From the NCBI GenBank assembly GCA_025362495.1, contig JANYGI010000182.1, positions 1 through 33,225 on the forward strand: 33,225 nt of DNA, given 5' to 3'. Shown piece by piece: positions 24,849-29,393 of this stretch (position 1 is its first letter; the number at the start of each line of letters is the position of its first letter). Both the position numbers and the translations under genes were made by a program. Origin of the DNA: Byssovorax sp. Its GTDB lineage: Bacteria > Myxococcota_A > Polyangia > Polyangiales > Polyangiaceae. The notes beneath the pieces were generated by a model. It did no database searches and was not told where the DNA came from. It saw nothing but the letters and a program-made list of their open reading frames with translations.

Positions 24849-24988
24849 ATTGCATTTTTGGATTTCTTCACAGCAGCCCGGCGACGCGTCGCGCGGATCC
24901 TCGCCGGTTCCCTCGGGTTTCGCTCGCGTCGCCGCGCACCGGCCTGGCCCGCGCGACGCCCCCGTGGCGCCCGCCGCGTCAGCCCGGT

Positions 24989-24994
24989 TAGGAT
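24989..24994 (+). promoter_or_regulatory. Candidate -10 hexamer before the second kinase
   Basis: TAGGAT lies 8 bases before the ATG at 25003, with no Shine-Dalgarno sequence between. It fits the leaderless pattern. Confidence 0.35.
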
Positions 24995-25002
24995 GCCGCC
25001 CG

Positions 25003-26724
25003 ATGTCCCGCGTTCCCCTTCCCCCCGCCGAGCCGATGAAGCTGGGGCGGCTGGCCGAGATCGCCCGCGGCGGCATGGGATCGGTCGAGCTTTCGCGCGT
25101 CGAGGAGGGCCGCCTCGCCGGCCAGATCGTCGCCGTCAAGCGGCTGCATCCGAACATCGCCTCGGATCCCCAGTTCGTTTCCATGTTCCTCGACGAGGCG
25201 TGGCTGACGGCGGCGCTCCATCACGTCAACGTCGTCGCCGTGGCGGCCTGGGGCGACGACGACCGGGGCATGTTCCTCGCGATCGAGTTCGTGCAAGGCG
25301 TCTCGCTCCAGCGCTTGCTCAAGGAGTCGAAGGTCAACAAGGAGATGTTCGCCGAGCGCACCGTGGCGAACCTCTGCTCGCAGATCTGCGCGGGGCTCAC
25401 CGCGGCGCACAGCCTCCGCGGCGACGACGGCGCGCTGCTCGGCCTCGTCCACCGCGACCTCACGCCGGGCAACGTGCTCGTCACGTTCGACGGGCTCGTG
25501 AAGATCGTCGACTTCGGCATCGCCAAGGCCGAGGAGCGGATCAGCCACACGCGCACCGGCACGCTCAAGGGCAAACCCGCGTACATGGCGCCCGAGCAGG
25601 CGCGGGGCGGCAAGGTCGACGCGCGCGCCGACATCTTCTCGTTCGGCGTGCTGATGTTCGAGCTGCTCGCCGGCCGCCGCCCGTGGCTGTCGAAGGCCGC
25701 CTTCGACGTGATGATGGAGATCGCCGGCGACCCGCCGCCGAAGCTCTCGGATCTGCGCCCCGCGCTCAACCCCGAGTTCATCGCCATCGTCGAGAAATGC
25801 CTGGAAAAGAAGCCTGAAGATCGCTTCTCGTCCGCGGCCGAGGTCCAGGCGCGGCTCGACGCTTGGCGCGCGCAGAAGGGCTTCATGAGCGACGATCGGC
25901 AGTCGCTCGCGGCCTTCGTGGTGCGCAACTCGGACGCGCAGATCGCCTGGTATCAGGCGGCGCTCCGCGGCGACTTCATCAAGGTCGCCAAGGCCGAGAC
26001 CTTCAAGGAGCTCGAAGAGAAGATCGACGCCCAGCGCGAGGACCGGGACAAGCCGAAGAAGAAGCCGCCGCCGCTGCGCCCCGCCGCCGGTCGCCCGGCC
26101 GATCCGCCTCCCCGACCCGCCGCGGGCGCGCCCGCCGAGGCTGCCCCGACGAGCGCCGCAGCGGCCACGAGCGGGCCCGCGCCGACCAGCAGGCCGGCGC
26201 CGACCAGCGGGCCCATGTCGGCTCGCAACGACGCGCCGCCGTCGAGCGGGAGCCCCGCCGTCAGCACGCTCGACGCGTCGCCCTCGTCGCGCCTGCTCGC
26301 GGGCGCGGGCACCGAGTACATGGTCATGTCGCCGTTCGCGACCGGCGAGATCAAGCTCCCGCCGATGCCGTCGCCGCCGGGCGCGCGCTCTCGGGCGGAG
26401 GTGCCGCCCGCGCCGCCTCCTCCGCCGATCACGAGCACGGGGCTCGGCAGCGGCGTGTACGCGGCGCCTCCGCCGACCGCGAGCTCGCCGCCCACGCTCG
26501 ATCCTCGCTTCAGCACGGCGCCTCGCCTGACGGCCCCCGCGCCAGTCGCGCCGCAGAGCTCGAGCCTCAAGCTCATCGTGCTGCTGTTGCTCATCGCCGT
26601 GCTCGGCGCCGGCTCGGTCGCCGCGTGGCAGATCATCGTGCGGCGCAGCGCCCTCGGCGCGCCGCCTCCCGCGACGCCGGCCGTGGCCGCGCCGACGCCC
26701 GTGCCCGCGCCGGCGGGGAGCTGA
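25003..26724 (+). CDS. Membrane-anchored Ser/Thr protein kinase
   Basis: A 573-residue protein from the ATG at 25003. The kinase domain spans about 14-288: glycine loop ARGGMGSVEL (21-30), Lys46 in VAVK, catalytic loop HRDLTPGN (150-157), DFG (170-172) and APE (197-199). The Thr in HRDLTP is common in myxobacterial kinases, and all catalytic residues are present. A charged helix (about 330-352) leads into a long Pro/Ala/Ser linker with TSGPAPTS-type repeats. A single membrane helix at about 522-546 precedes a short Ala/Pro tail. The upstream extension of the frame has no coding look, so the ATG behind the -10-like box is preferred. The next gene starts one base after the stop; an operon is likely. 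Confidence 0.92.
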   Translation: MSRVPLPPAEPMKLGRLAEIARGGMGSVELSRVEEGRLAGQIVAVKRLHPNIASDPQFVSMFLDEAWLTAALHHVNVVAVAAWGDDDRGMFLAIEFVQGVSLQRLLKESKVNKEMFAERTVANLCSQICAGLTAAHSLRGDDGALLGLVHRDLTPGNVLVTFDGLVKIVDFGIAKAEERISHTRTGTLKGKPAYMAPEQARGGKVDARADIFSFGVLMFELLAGRRPWLSKAAFDVMMEIAGDPPPKLSDLRPALNPEFIAIVEKCLEKKPEDRFSSAAEVQARLDAWRAQKGFMSDDRQSLAAFVVRNSDAQIAWYQAALRGDFIKVAKAETFKELEEKIDAQREDRDKPKKKPPPLRPAAGRPADPPPRPAAGAPAEAAPTSAAAATSGPAPTSRPAPTSGPMSARNDAPPSSGSPAVSTLDASPSSRLLAGAGTEYMVMSPFATGEIKLPPMPSPPGARSRAEVPPAPPPPPITSTGLGSGVYAAPPPTASSPPTLDPRFSTAPRLTAPAPVAPQSSSLKLIVLLLLIAVLGAGSVAAWQIIVRRSALGAPPPATPAVAAPTPVPAPAGS

Positions 26725-26725
26725 C

Positions 26726-27514
26726 GTGCTCTCGCCGCTGCTCGATCTCGGCGCCTTCGCGCTCACGTTCCTGAACATCGCGGCGGCGCCCTCGCTCGAT
26801 CCGGGGCCGTCGCCGCAGTGCCCCGCCGACATGCGCCTCGTGACCGGGCAGCACCACGACGAGATGGAGCACTACTGCATCGATCCGCGCACCGACTCGA
26901 AGACCACGCACTGCTTCGCCTACTTCGAGGGCGTCTCCGCCGAGGAGGGCGCCGTCACCGACGTCAACGTGTGCATGGATCAGTTCGAGGCGCCGAACCT
27001 CCGCGGCGAGAAGCCGTTCGTGATGAAGTCGTTCAACGCCGCGACCAAGTGGTGCGGTGAGCGCAACAAGCGCGTGTGCTCCGAGCAGGAGTGGGAGACG
27101 GCGTGCGAGGGCCCCGAGCTCCGCCCGCTCGCGTACGGCTGGCACGTCGACACCGCGCTCTGCAACAGCAACAAGGGCTGGCGGCCGTTCGATACCACCA
27201 AGCTCTACAGCGAGGGCGCCGCCGCCACGAAGGAGATCGAGCACCTGTGGCAGGGCTCGCCGAGCGGCGCGTACGCCACGTGCGCGAGCTCGTTCGGCAT
27301 CTACGACATGATGGGCAACGTGGAAGAGTGGGTGGCCACGCGCCATGGCCGCAAGTTCCCCGGCGCGCTCATGGGTGGCTTCTGGGCCAAGCCGTGGACG
27401 GGGTGCCGCGGCACCAACGACGCGCACGAGCCCACGTTCACCTTCTACGAGACGGGGTTCCGCTGCTGCGCCGACGCCGGCTCGCTCGACGACGACGGCA
27501 AGAAAAAACGCTGA
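26726..27514 (+). CDS. SUMF1/FGE-sulfatase-domain protein, probably non-catalytic
   Basis: A 262-residue protein starting with GTG one base after the kinase stop. A hydrophobic N-terminus (about 5-22) acts as a signal peptide or anchor. The domain matches the formylglycine-generating-enzyme fold: RVCSEQEWETACEG (116-129), YDMMGNVEEWV (193-203), GGFW (217-220) and the terminal GFRCC (244-248). Canonical FGE needs two Cys in a CxxxxC arrangement near its active site; here only Cys227 (TGCRGTN) is in place, so sulfatase maturation is unlikely. Many Cys suggest disulphides and an exported protein. Such domains are often found next to or fused with Ser/Thr kinases, so a kinase-associated extracytoplasmic partner is my inference. 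Confidence 0.82.
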   Translation: MLSPLLDLGAFALTFLNIAAAPSLDPGPSPQCPADMRLVTGQHHDEMEHYCIDPRTDSKTTHCFAYFEGVSAEEGAVTDVNVCMDQFEAPNLRGEKPFVMKSFNAATKWCGERNKRVCSEQEWETACEGPELRPLAYGWHVDTALCNSNKGWRPFDTTKLYSEGAAATKEIEHLWQGSPSGAYATCASSFGIYDMMGNVEEWVATRHGRKFPGALMGGFWAKPWTGCRGTNDAHEPTFTFYETGFRCCADAGSLDDDGKKKR

Positions 27515-27542: not shown

Positions 27543-29393
27543 ATGAGCTACGCGCCCGCGCTCCGACTGGCGATCGAGGCCGCGCTGGCCGCGGGGGCGA
27601 CGTTCCGCGCCGAGCTGCACCGCCCCGGCGGGCCGCGCGGCGCCGGCGACAGCGCGCCCGCGGACCGCGAGGTCGAGCTCCGGATCCGCGACGCGCTGCT
27701 GGCGGCGACGCCGTGGAGCTACCTCGGCGAAGAGAGCGGCGACGGCGTCATTGGCGCCGATCCATCGCACGTGTGGATCGTCGATCCGAACGACGGAACG
27801 GCTGCGTTCTTGAAGGGTCGGCGCGGGGCCTCGGTGTCGATCGCGCTCGTTCACGCGGGCACGCCGGTGCTCGGCGTGGTGTACGCGTATGCCTGTCCCG
27901 ACGACGACGGCGATCTGATCGCCTGGGCCGAGGGAGCGGGATCGATCACCCGCAACGGCGTCGCCGTGGACCACCGGCTCGACGACGGCCAGCTCGCGCA
28001 GGGCTCGATCGTGATCGTCTCGCAGGACGCCGACGAGCGATCGATCGCCAACGCGCGCTGCGTGGCGCCGGCGCGCTTCCTCGCCCTGCCGAGCATCGCG
28101 TACCGGCTGGCGCTGGTGGCCGTGGGGGACGGCGTCGCCGCGGTGTCGCTCGCGGGATCGAGATCGTGGGACTACGCCGCGGGGCACGCGCTGGTGCGTG
28201 GCGCGGGCGGCGATTTTATCGACGGCGAAGGCCGCCCCGTCACCTACGACGCCTCGGGCAAGAGCTTCGCGAAGCCCTGCTTCGGCGGCACGTCCGCCGT
28301 GGTCCGCGAGCTCGCGACGCGGCCCTGGAGCGACGTCGCGCGCGCGCCCGCCGCCGAGACACCCTCGCCCTTCGCGCTCGCGCGAGCGAGGCGCGGACAC
28401 CACGAGCGCGACGCCGGCCGGCTCCGACGCGCGCAGGGGTGCCTCCTCGGTCAGCTCGCGGGCGACGCGCTCGGCCAGCTCGTCGAGTTCCAGACGGCCG
28501 CGGCGATCCTCGCGCGCTACCCGGGCGGCGTGCGCGATCTCGTCGACGGCGGCGAGTGGGACACGATCGCCGGACAGCCCACCGACGACTCGGAGATGGC
28601 GCTGATGCTCGCGCGATCGATCCTGAAGGAAAGCCGCTACGATCGCGCCGCCGCGCTCGACGCCTACGTCCACTGGCACGACTCCGATCCCTTCGACATG
28701 GGCGGCACCACGCGGGCCGCGCTCCAGGCCGCCTCGGGCGCGCCGACACGCGAGGATCGCCTCGCCCGCGCCGCCGCGTCGGCCAAGCAGGACAGCGAGG
28801 CCAACGGATCGCTGATGCGGATATCGCCCCTCGCGATCTTCGGCGCCGGCGATCCCGCGGCCGCGGCGGAATGGGCCCGCGAGGACAGCGCGCTCACCCA
28901 CCCTCACGTGGTCTGTCGCGAGGCCTGCGCGGCGTTCGTCGCGGCGATCGCCACGGCGATCGGTACGGGCGCGGACGCCGAGGGGGCCTATGCGGCTGGC
29001 CTCGCGGAGGCGCGACGCGGCGGGAACGAATTCGTGATTGGCTGTCTCGAGCGCGCCCGCCACGAGCTGCCGGCGGATTTCTCGCGGCAAATGGGGTGGG
29101 TGCGGATCGCCCTGCAAAACGCCTTCTATCAGCTCCTGCACGCGCCGACGTTCGAGGCGGGTTTGACGGCAACCGTGATGGCCGGCGGAGACACCGACAC
29201 CAACGGTGCCATCGCCGGGGCGCTGCTCGGCGCGGTACACGGGCGCGAGGGGGTGCAGCGGCGCTACCGAGAGCAGGTGATCACCTGCCGGCCGCTGCGC
29301 GAGATCGGCGCCCAGCAGGCGCGGCCGCGGGAATTCTGGCCCGTCGACGCCATGGTGCTGGCAGAGGGCCTGTTGCTCGCGGGGCGGGGATGA
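27543..29393 (+). CDS. Fusion of inositol-monophosphatase-family and ADP-ribosylglycohydrolase domains
   Basis: A 616-residue cytosolic protein. Residues about 5-262 form an IMPase/CysQ-type phosphatase: GEESG (62-66), WIVDPNDGT (78-86) with the metal ligands Asp81 and Asp84, and WDYAAGHALVRGAGG (209-223). Residues about 293-613 form an ADP-ribosylglycohydrolase (DraG/ARH): GCLLGQLAGDALGQ (299-312), PTDDSEM (346-352), EANGSLMR (419-426) and GGDTDTNGAIAGALLGA (548-564), with the Asp residues of both Mg2+ sites present. Both halves look active. The first domain would remove a phosphate from a sugar or nucleotide, the second would cleave ADP-ribose from a protein or other acceptor. The gene lies 28 bases after the SUMF1-like gene, probably in one operon with the kinase. 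Confidence 0.9.
   Translation: MSYAPALRLAIEAALAAGATFRAELHRPGGPRGAGDSAPADREVELRIRDALLAATPWSYLGEESGDGVIGADPSHVWIVDPNDGTAAFLKGRRGASVSIALVHAGTPVLGVVYAYACPDDDGDLIAWAEGAGSITRNGVAVDHRLDDGQLAQGSIVIVSQDADERSIANARCVAPARFLALPSIAYRLALVAVGDGVAAVSLAGSRSWDYAAGHALVRGAGGDFIDGEGRPVTYDASGKSFAKPCFGGTSAVVRELATRPWSDVARAPAAETPSPFALARARRGHHERDAGRLRRAQGCLLGQLAGDALGQLVEFQTAAAILARYPGGVRDLVDGGEWDTIAGQPTDDSEMALMLARSILKESRYDRAAALDAYVHWHDSDPFDMGGTTRAALQAASGAPTREDRLARAAASAKQDSEANGSLMRISPLAIFGAGDPAAAAEWAREDSALTHPHVVCREACAAFVAAIATAIGTGADAEGAYAAGLAEARRGGNEFVIGCLERARHELPADFSRQMGWVRIALQNAFYQLLHAPTFEAGLTATVMAGGDTDTNGAIAGALLGAVHGREGVQRRYREQVITCRPLREIGAQQARPREFWPVDAMVLAEGLLLAGRG

Follow-up and report, generated by a model that had tools for sequence, protein, structure and literature searches.

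What might an inositol monophosphatase (IMPase)-family phosphatase and an ADP-ribosylglycohydrolase accomplish when they are made as one protein? The question is raised by a gene of the window, by which we mean the whole stretch of Byssovorax DNA that was analyzed, 33225 bases long and identical with the entire contig C22 of a 10.8 Mb source genome in 240 contigs. Both active sites of this protein persist in one polypeptide across phyla, making it more than one genome's curiosity, and the fusion would allow the proposal that bacterial conflict systems couple the removal of ADP-ribose to dephosphorylation to be tested on a single enzyme, along with the question of which phosphate takes part.

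Reading frame and predicted structure

Positions 27543 to 29393 of the forward strand translate without a stop into 616 amino acids, and the translation, the Pfam matches, and the motif positions bear out the reading in the earlier note that two catalytic sets share one unbroken frame. The frame stays open upstream as far as 27345; with the starts that we chose, several homologues begin at the position equivalent to 27543. Inositol_P (PF00459) matches residues 9-238 (E 3.5e-27, 96 bits against a cut-off of 27) and ADP_ribosyl_GH (PF03747) matches residues 299-573 (E 2.3e-61, 208.5 bits against a cut-off of 26.2). With the AlphaFold2 model, the protein divides into an IMPase-fold phosphatase domain (27552..28343, +; residues about 4-267, with E63, D81, D84, and D210), a variable linker with few conserved columns (28344..28409, +; residues 268-289), and an ARH/DraG-fold ADP-ribosylglycohydrolase domain (28410..29390, +; residues about 290-616, with D308, E315, T347-D349, D385, H453, and D550-T553). 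The motifs GEES, DPNDGT, and WDYAAG occupy residues 62-65, 81-86, and 209-214 of the phosphatase half, and GDALGQ, TDDSEM, and GDTDTN occupy residues 307-312, 347-352, and 549-554 of the hydrolase half.

Built with 49 homologues, the AlphaFold2 model has high confidence throughout the two halves (mean pLDDT 96.5, pTM 0.95), and the relative placement of the two halves is therefore predicted with confidence. Confidence dips in the linker, where the mean pLDDT over the ten-residue block 271-280 at the domain boundary is 85, which is still high. The earlier note had raised the possibility of a frameshift or assembly join at this boundary and had suggested structure prediction of the interface; no sign of either artefact was found, because single-ORF relatives from other genomes and other phyla span the same boundary and the model is confident there.

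Comparison with solved structures (VIA-align, with a Foldseek list) placed the C-terminal half close to Tri1 (6dre; Z 39.4, 24% identity), DraG (2woc; Z 38.8, 27% identity), Thermus ARG (2yzw; Z 38.0), and ARH3 (Z 34-36), and the N-terminal half close to IMPase 2p3n (Z 30.1) and SuhB (Z 29.8). No solved structure spanning both halves was among the matches listed. The entry 8za7 was rejected as a two-half match, as its range runs from 13 to 615 but comprises 311 aligned residues of a 332-residue chain. Within the source genome there are five ADP_ribosyl_GH matches, and the query is matched across both halves only by the fusion gene.

Families and active-site residues

The fusion belongs to the inositol monophosphatase family, passing the PF00459 cut-off and keeping the motifs GEE, DPxDGT, and WDxAAG, and to the ADP_ribosyl_GH / ARH superfamily, passing the PF03747 cut-off and having the ARH fold and the metal-site Asp motifs. 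It reaches none of the NCBIfam equivalog cut-offs, falling short of those for CysQ (80.1 vs 228.8 bits), HisN (70.2 vs 275.15), inositol-1-monophosphatase PRK10757 (45.8 vs 332), DraG TIGR02662 (134.9 vs 337.05), and Tri1 immunity NF041672 (86 vs 490). The N-terminal half thus has the same fold and motifs as IMPases of the CysQ, HisN, and SuhB type but misses their equivalog cut-offs widely. Going by IMPase structures, we take E63, D81, D84, and D210 to be its metal ligands. Across 53 aligned fused proteins, E63, D81, D210, D308, E315, T347, D348, H453, D552, and T553 are kept in 53/53, and D84 (52/53), D349 (51/53), D385 (49/53), and D550 (52/53) are near-invariant.

In DraG, according to passages of PMC7050489, an Asp97 near metal I is specific to the class, adenine stacks on Tyr212, and an ExxA motif (Glu121) reads the adenine edge. 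Like DraG, the hydrolase half of the fusion has the metal-site motifs and, by pairwise alignment to DraG and among the 53 fused proteins, an equivalent of Asp97 in D385. Unlike DraG, it lies far below the NCBIfam cut-off, has a phosphatase attached, carries Trp519 at the position of Tyr212 (Trp in 47/53, aromatic in 53/53), and does not conserve ExxA/Glu121, the position aligned with it in the pairwise alignment (416) being variable and the family having SQANG instead. S[QE]ANG is found in 12 of the 16 standalone hydrolases examined, 11 of which also have a GWV motif, and the carriers of both include the close viral relatives L183, L184, L186, L187, and L188. Judged by these residues, the hydrolase half is probably a separate ARH subclass, and it may hold its ligand in a way different from that of DraG. 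One fused protein (L092, from genome G070) has altered hydrolase metal motifs, with TDG for TDD and GAHADT for GGDTDT, and its hydrolase half is perhaps inactive.

The structural comparison raises the prospect of an immunity or antidote enzyme that acts against ADP-ribosyltransferase toxins in the manner of Tri1, with the IMPase half stabilizing the protein or widening its substrate range. The top structural match is indeed the Tri1 toxin/immunity pair, with which DraG ties, and the two proteins share a fold, but the score against the Tri1 equivalog is far below its cut-off, a general Pfam scan not specifically aimed at toxins recognized no toxin family among the scanned window neighbors, and the conserved catalytic residues of the IMPase half argue against a purely structural role. 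We consider an immunity enzyme distinctly improbable.

The active-site comparison also bears on the main rival to the reading that we favor below, namely a salvage or metabolite-repair enzyme with no role in conflict. Its IMPase half would dephosphorylate a damaged or unusual nucleotide, candidates being phospho-ADP-ribose, an NADP or NAADP derivative, and PAP, and its hydrolase half would split the N-glycosidic bond of the product. Such an enzyme would be in keeping with CysQ and HisN being the nearest NCBIfam models for the IMPase half, with the weak match of that half to a bifunctional NADP phosphatase/NAD kinase model (20.4 bits, E 1.9e-4), and with the absence of the adenine-binding ExxA of DraG, which allows a different ligand.

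Distribution and history of the fusion

The fusion is a conserved architecture with a patchy distribution. Homologues fused in a single ORF, 39-65% identical to the query, are spread over Myxococcota, Planctomycetota, Chloroflexota, Acidobacteriota, Armatimonadota, and Pseudomonadota, a breadth that had escaped the earlier note, as had the broken-up derivatives described below. Among the best 80 of 161 relatives in a genome-collection scan, the nearest named homologues are from Minicystis and Sorangium, most of the loci L006-L037 together with L040 span both halves (in these phyla and in candidate phyla), and L042 to L085 are IMPase-only matches (21-27%) from SAR11-type bacteria. Within the order of the window, 45/183 genomes match at E <= 1e-20, of which 26 have both halves (including the genome of the window, G166 with the protein in two pieces, and G002 with a match short of the end) and 19 have the hydrolase half only. 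Within the order of a Roseomonas genome, 19/299 match at E <= 1e-60, 12 of them full-length or nearly so and 7 partial. Three annotated plasmid copies bear the name 'inositol monophosphatase family protein' only.

Viral collections hold mostly the hydrolase half. No phage-encoded fusion was found in INPHARED, where the matches were to the hydrolase part only (12 records at E <= 1e-5). The 36 loci from IMG/VR comprise one full fusion (L182), one IMPase half (L190), nine hydrolase-half relatives at 47-54% identity (L183-L189, L194, L195), L191 at 39-42%, and more distant loci with at most 45% over short stretches. The full-length fusion L182 is on a 27 kb contig that is classed as viral and is possibly a provirus or a miscalled island, and the nine hydrolase-half relatives are on contigs of 18-170 kb with no IMPase half within the fetched flanks.

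Trees were made by quick searches with SH-aLRT support only and midpoint roots, leaving out partial and near-duplicate rows. In the IMPase-half tree, which has seven standalone rows, the fused domains are set off by a long branch (2.2, support 93) that parts them from four other IMPases. Two Pseudomonas plasmid IMPases and one viral-contig IMPase group with the P. luteola fusion (SH-aLRT 99) and thereby nest among the fused rows. Four proteins whose hydrolase half is missing or degenerate are likewise placed inside the fused clade. Since the closest separate IMPase domains lie within the fused clade, they look like break-offs, that is, derivatives of fused proteins. In the hydrolase-half tree, L180, L184, L186, L187, and L188 form one group with L120 of an Agrobacterium plasmid (98). 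A fused row from Bryobacteraceae joins this group with support of 84, and the standalone hydrolases L183 and L137 are placed among fused rows. Not nested in this way are the standalone L111 and L112 and the viral pair L189/L191, with which the fused rows L109 and L110, of the family f4, lie outside; inner support is often low in this tree. These trees suggest a single old fusion that was later split more than once, with good support for the IMPase half and mixed support for the hydrolase half; distances in one half correlate with distances in the other, with a Pearson coefficient of 0.70 and a Spearman coefficient of 0.61. In the whole-protein tree, members of the order of the window are scattered at several places among other phyla, and the gene has therefore apparently been transferred horizontally.

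Some copies depart from the intact architecture. In L138, L139, and L140 of the Acetobacterales, and in L038, the IMPase half is intact and the hydrolase half is degenerate or replaced, with the TDD and GDTDT motifs lost and the C-terminal tail motif still recognizable in some. As L138-L140 have lost the hydrolase catalytic motifs and kept the IMPase half, these copies can do without the coupling. In L040 and L134, the hydrolase half is in two frames (tblastn), and these copies look frameshifted or misassembled.

Gene neighborhoods and candidate functions

Directly upstream of the fusion, across a 28 bp gap, is a gene for a SUMF1/FGE-sulfatase-like protein (26726..27514, +; PF03781, 6.5e-14), whose GTG start lies one base after the stop of a Ser/Thr protein kinase gene (24850..26724, +; PF00069, 7.8e-38). 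This close spacing on one strand is what speaks for the idea, put forward in the earlier note, that the fusion is a regulator tied to the kinase and the SUMF1-like protein in a pathway where phosphorylation and ADP-ribosylation meet, but the arrangement is absent from the other loci examined. In 70 other loci, which include some duplicates or half-domain loci and 27 with flanks of at most 1.5 kb, phmmer found no match to the SUMF1-like protein and matched the kinase in five only (L007, L022, L024, L028, and L036), in all of which adjacency of the kinase to the fusion in the same order is absent. The two genes are neighbors rather than conserved partners, and we regard such a regulator as highly improbable. 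Downstream of the fusion, the scanned ORFs of the window have no Pfam match, and the contig ends at 33225, 3.8 kb away. Pfam recognized no WYL, Nudix, vWA, or other conflict-type partner beside the gene of the window.

A framework for such a protein exists in a study that, from its contributions line, we take to be from the group of Aravind. Section 3.8 of that study (PMC9503650; Viruses 2022) predicts ARG-centered conflict systems that have no coupled ADP-ribosyltransferase or sirtuin gene. Somewhat more than 55% of them couple the ARG to a phosphatase, either within one protein or through a neighboring gene, and over 42% have a WYL or Nudix transcription factor beside it; apart from these regulators, the companions described are vWA and TY-type chaperones, REases, helicases, and ARPP. 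The phosphatases that it names are of the rhodanese-phosphatase, calcineurin-like, HD, and HAD kinds, searching its main text for inositol, IMPase, and monophosphatase gave no occurrence, and the anti-phage or anti-ADP-ribosylation role of the systems is itself a prediction. The earlier note, which knew of no defined biochemical role for such a fusion, had missed that this section of the study already covers couples of an ADP-ribosylglycohydrolase and a phosphatase; as to the pairing with an IMPase itself, literature searches naming it turned up two unrelated papers and none that describes it. The fusion is like the systems of section 3.8 in that a single polypeptide holds both the ARG domain and a phosphatase, and some of its relatives are near WYL, Nudix, vWA, YbjN/TY-chaperone, restriction-type nuclease, or ARPP genes. 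It is unlike them in that its phosphatase has the IMPase fold, from a superfamily other than those named there, and in that most fusion loci are without the regulator and the chaperone.

All-against-all clustering of ORFs from 64 sources revealed no operon partner common to all loci, and of the clusters in at least four loci, none was common beyond close relatives; two further large clusters were set aside as partners, as they look like antisense reading frames of the fusion gene. Each of the four f4 genomes that hold the fusion (G016, G019, G020, and G025) has two WYL genes and no more, which form a tandem pair immediately before the fusion on the same strand (G016:C80, G025:C85, G019:C62, and G020:C175; L099, L104, L109, and L110), and in L109, the single f4 case scanned, one of the pair has a PafC-type HTH. 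In the other 17/21 Polyangia genomes, the contig of the fusion carries no WYL gene within 10 kb, a distance cut short by the end of the contig in 7 of these 17, including the genome of the window. Because f4 is one family, the four genomes may represent one event, and the same may hold for the Acetobacterales loci L030 and L027, where a vWA protein, the fusion, a McrB-like AAA+ protein, and McrC follow one another with gaps of -4 to 43 bp; the same vWA protein is also present in L026, L034, and L039. Three loci have a same-strand Nudix gene, which shares 4 bp with the end of the fusion in L162 and L166 and starts 8 bp after it in L117. Of these three Nudix proteins, only that of L117 has the full Nudix-box pattern, and none matches an HTH family.

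Other conflict-type genes occur more sporadically. WYL genes are also present in some Acetobacterales loci. WYL and RecB-like nuclease/SF1 helicase genes are near the fusion on P. luteola and Rhodobacter plasmids (L115, L117), a YbjN/TY-Chap1-like gene adjoins it in L016 and L018, an Mrr-type endonuclease is near L116, and a YhcG-type and a VRR-NUC nuclease are near L009 and L010, which were left out of the partner count. ARPP-1 is upstream of the fusion in L108; it was rejected as a linkage, since it is present in 30/177 genomes of the order and beside the fusion only in G002, and a literature search on ARPP-1 found no paper. The fusion itself has no match to a defense model in PADLOC at E <= 0.001. 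Five scanned Chloroflexota loci have transporter or metabolic neighbors, and the other scanned neighbors in Chloroflexota/Planctomycetota are transport, metabolic, or structural genes.

By hand count, a conflict-type partner is among the called neighbors in 14/56 loci of the tallies: 4/21 in set A (L151, L156, L159, L160), 5/14 in set B (L027, L162, L163, L166, L181), and 5/21 in set C (L016, L018, L115, L116, L117). Among the top 25 families listed in the three tallies (97, 123, and 145 proteins), WYL is the most frequent in Polyangia (5), and Nudix shares first place in Acetobacterales (3). In a control of 145 proteins from 20 arbitrary windows of 4 of these genomes (4/149 proteins left out), none of WYL, NUDIX, VWA, YbjN, McrBC, and RNase_H_2 reaches two members. 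For WYL, 7/220 in sets A and B against at most 1/145 in the control gives a one-sided Fisher p of 0.11 (for 1) or 0.03 (for 0), a contrast that is weak alone; the strongest items of context are the synteny in f4 and the Nudix genes that overlap the fusion. Tally A is without the Sorangium loci L007, L008, L035, and L143 and without the outermost neighbor on each side, tally B is without L030 and L032, any protein longer than 900 aa was truncated to that length for both tallies and control, and the gene calls come from a GC-codon heuristic that contains errors (the annotated Nudix gene in L117 was missed).

Given this evidence, we tentatively favor, at close to an even chance, the reading that the fusion belongs with the ARG-phosphatase couples as a variant whose phosphatase is an IMPase, a two-step ADP-ribose eraser in conflict or repair modules. 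Encoded by a mobile accessory gene, it would be a rigid two-domain enzyme that reverses ADP-ribose chemistry in two stages: the ARH-fold domain at the C-terminus would hydrolyze the glycosidic bond by which an ADP-ribosyl (or related ribosyl) adduct is attached, and the N-terminal IMPase-fold domain would take a phosphate off the same substrate or the released product. This phosphate might be on the ribose (ADP-ribose-1''-phosphate type) or on a phosphorylated nucleic-acid end, or it might be that of ribose-5-phosphate/AMP once a neighboring Nudix enzyme had cut ADP-ribose. An ARH-like Streptomyces enzyme takes ADP-ribose off RNA phosphate ends, as described in passages of PMC11833690, which is one way for a phosphate and ADP-ribose to occur on one substrate. 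That two complete catalytic sets are kept in one polypeptide across phyla favors successive work on one substrate or product, and to this extent the proposal of sequential action in the earlier note stands, whereas its tie to the kinase and SUMF1-like protein does not. The catalysis, substrate, order of steps, and protective role of the fusion are what we infer from these comparisons.

The salvage or metabolite-repair enzyme would agree with there being no conserved partner, either in the window or in most loci from Polyangia, and with the transporters and metabolic enzymes that adjoin the five scanned Chloroflexota loci. It agrees less well with the patchy spread, the apparent horizontal transfer, the plasmid and viral-contig copies, and the conflict-type neighbors in several lineages; these features fit an accessory rather than a housekeeping use, and we rate salvage as rather unlikely. 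Quite unlikely, in our estimation, is a two-step de-phosphoribosylation eraser belonging to an undescribed defense or repair module. The IMPase half would then dephosphorylate a phosphoribosyl or phospho-ADP-ribosyl adduct, whether this arose directly or through a Nudix enzyme like those next door in three loci, after which the ARH-fold half, without the adenine-recognition motif of DraG, would remove the bare ribosyl from protein or nucleic acid. If this were true, the fusion would be a complete de-phosphoribosylation enzyme, and its eraser chemistry would be new.

Two further observations concern individual genomes. In L165, L167, and L171, from three related genomes, the fusion is followed by a gene for a 2OG-Fe(II) oxygenase. 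The Roseomonas genome G183 has two different fusion copies on contigs C1 (L026) and C556 (L170), the former preceded by the vWA gene and the latter near a CarD-type gene.
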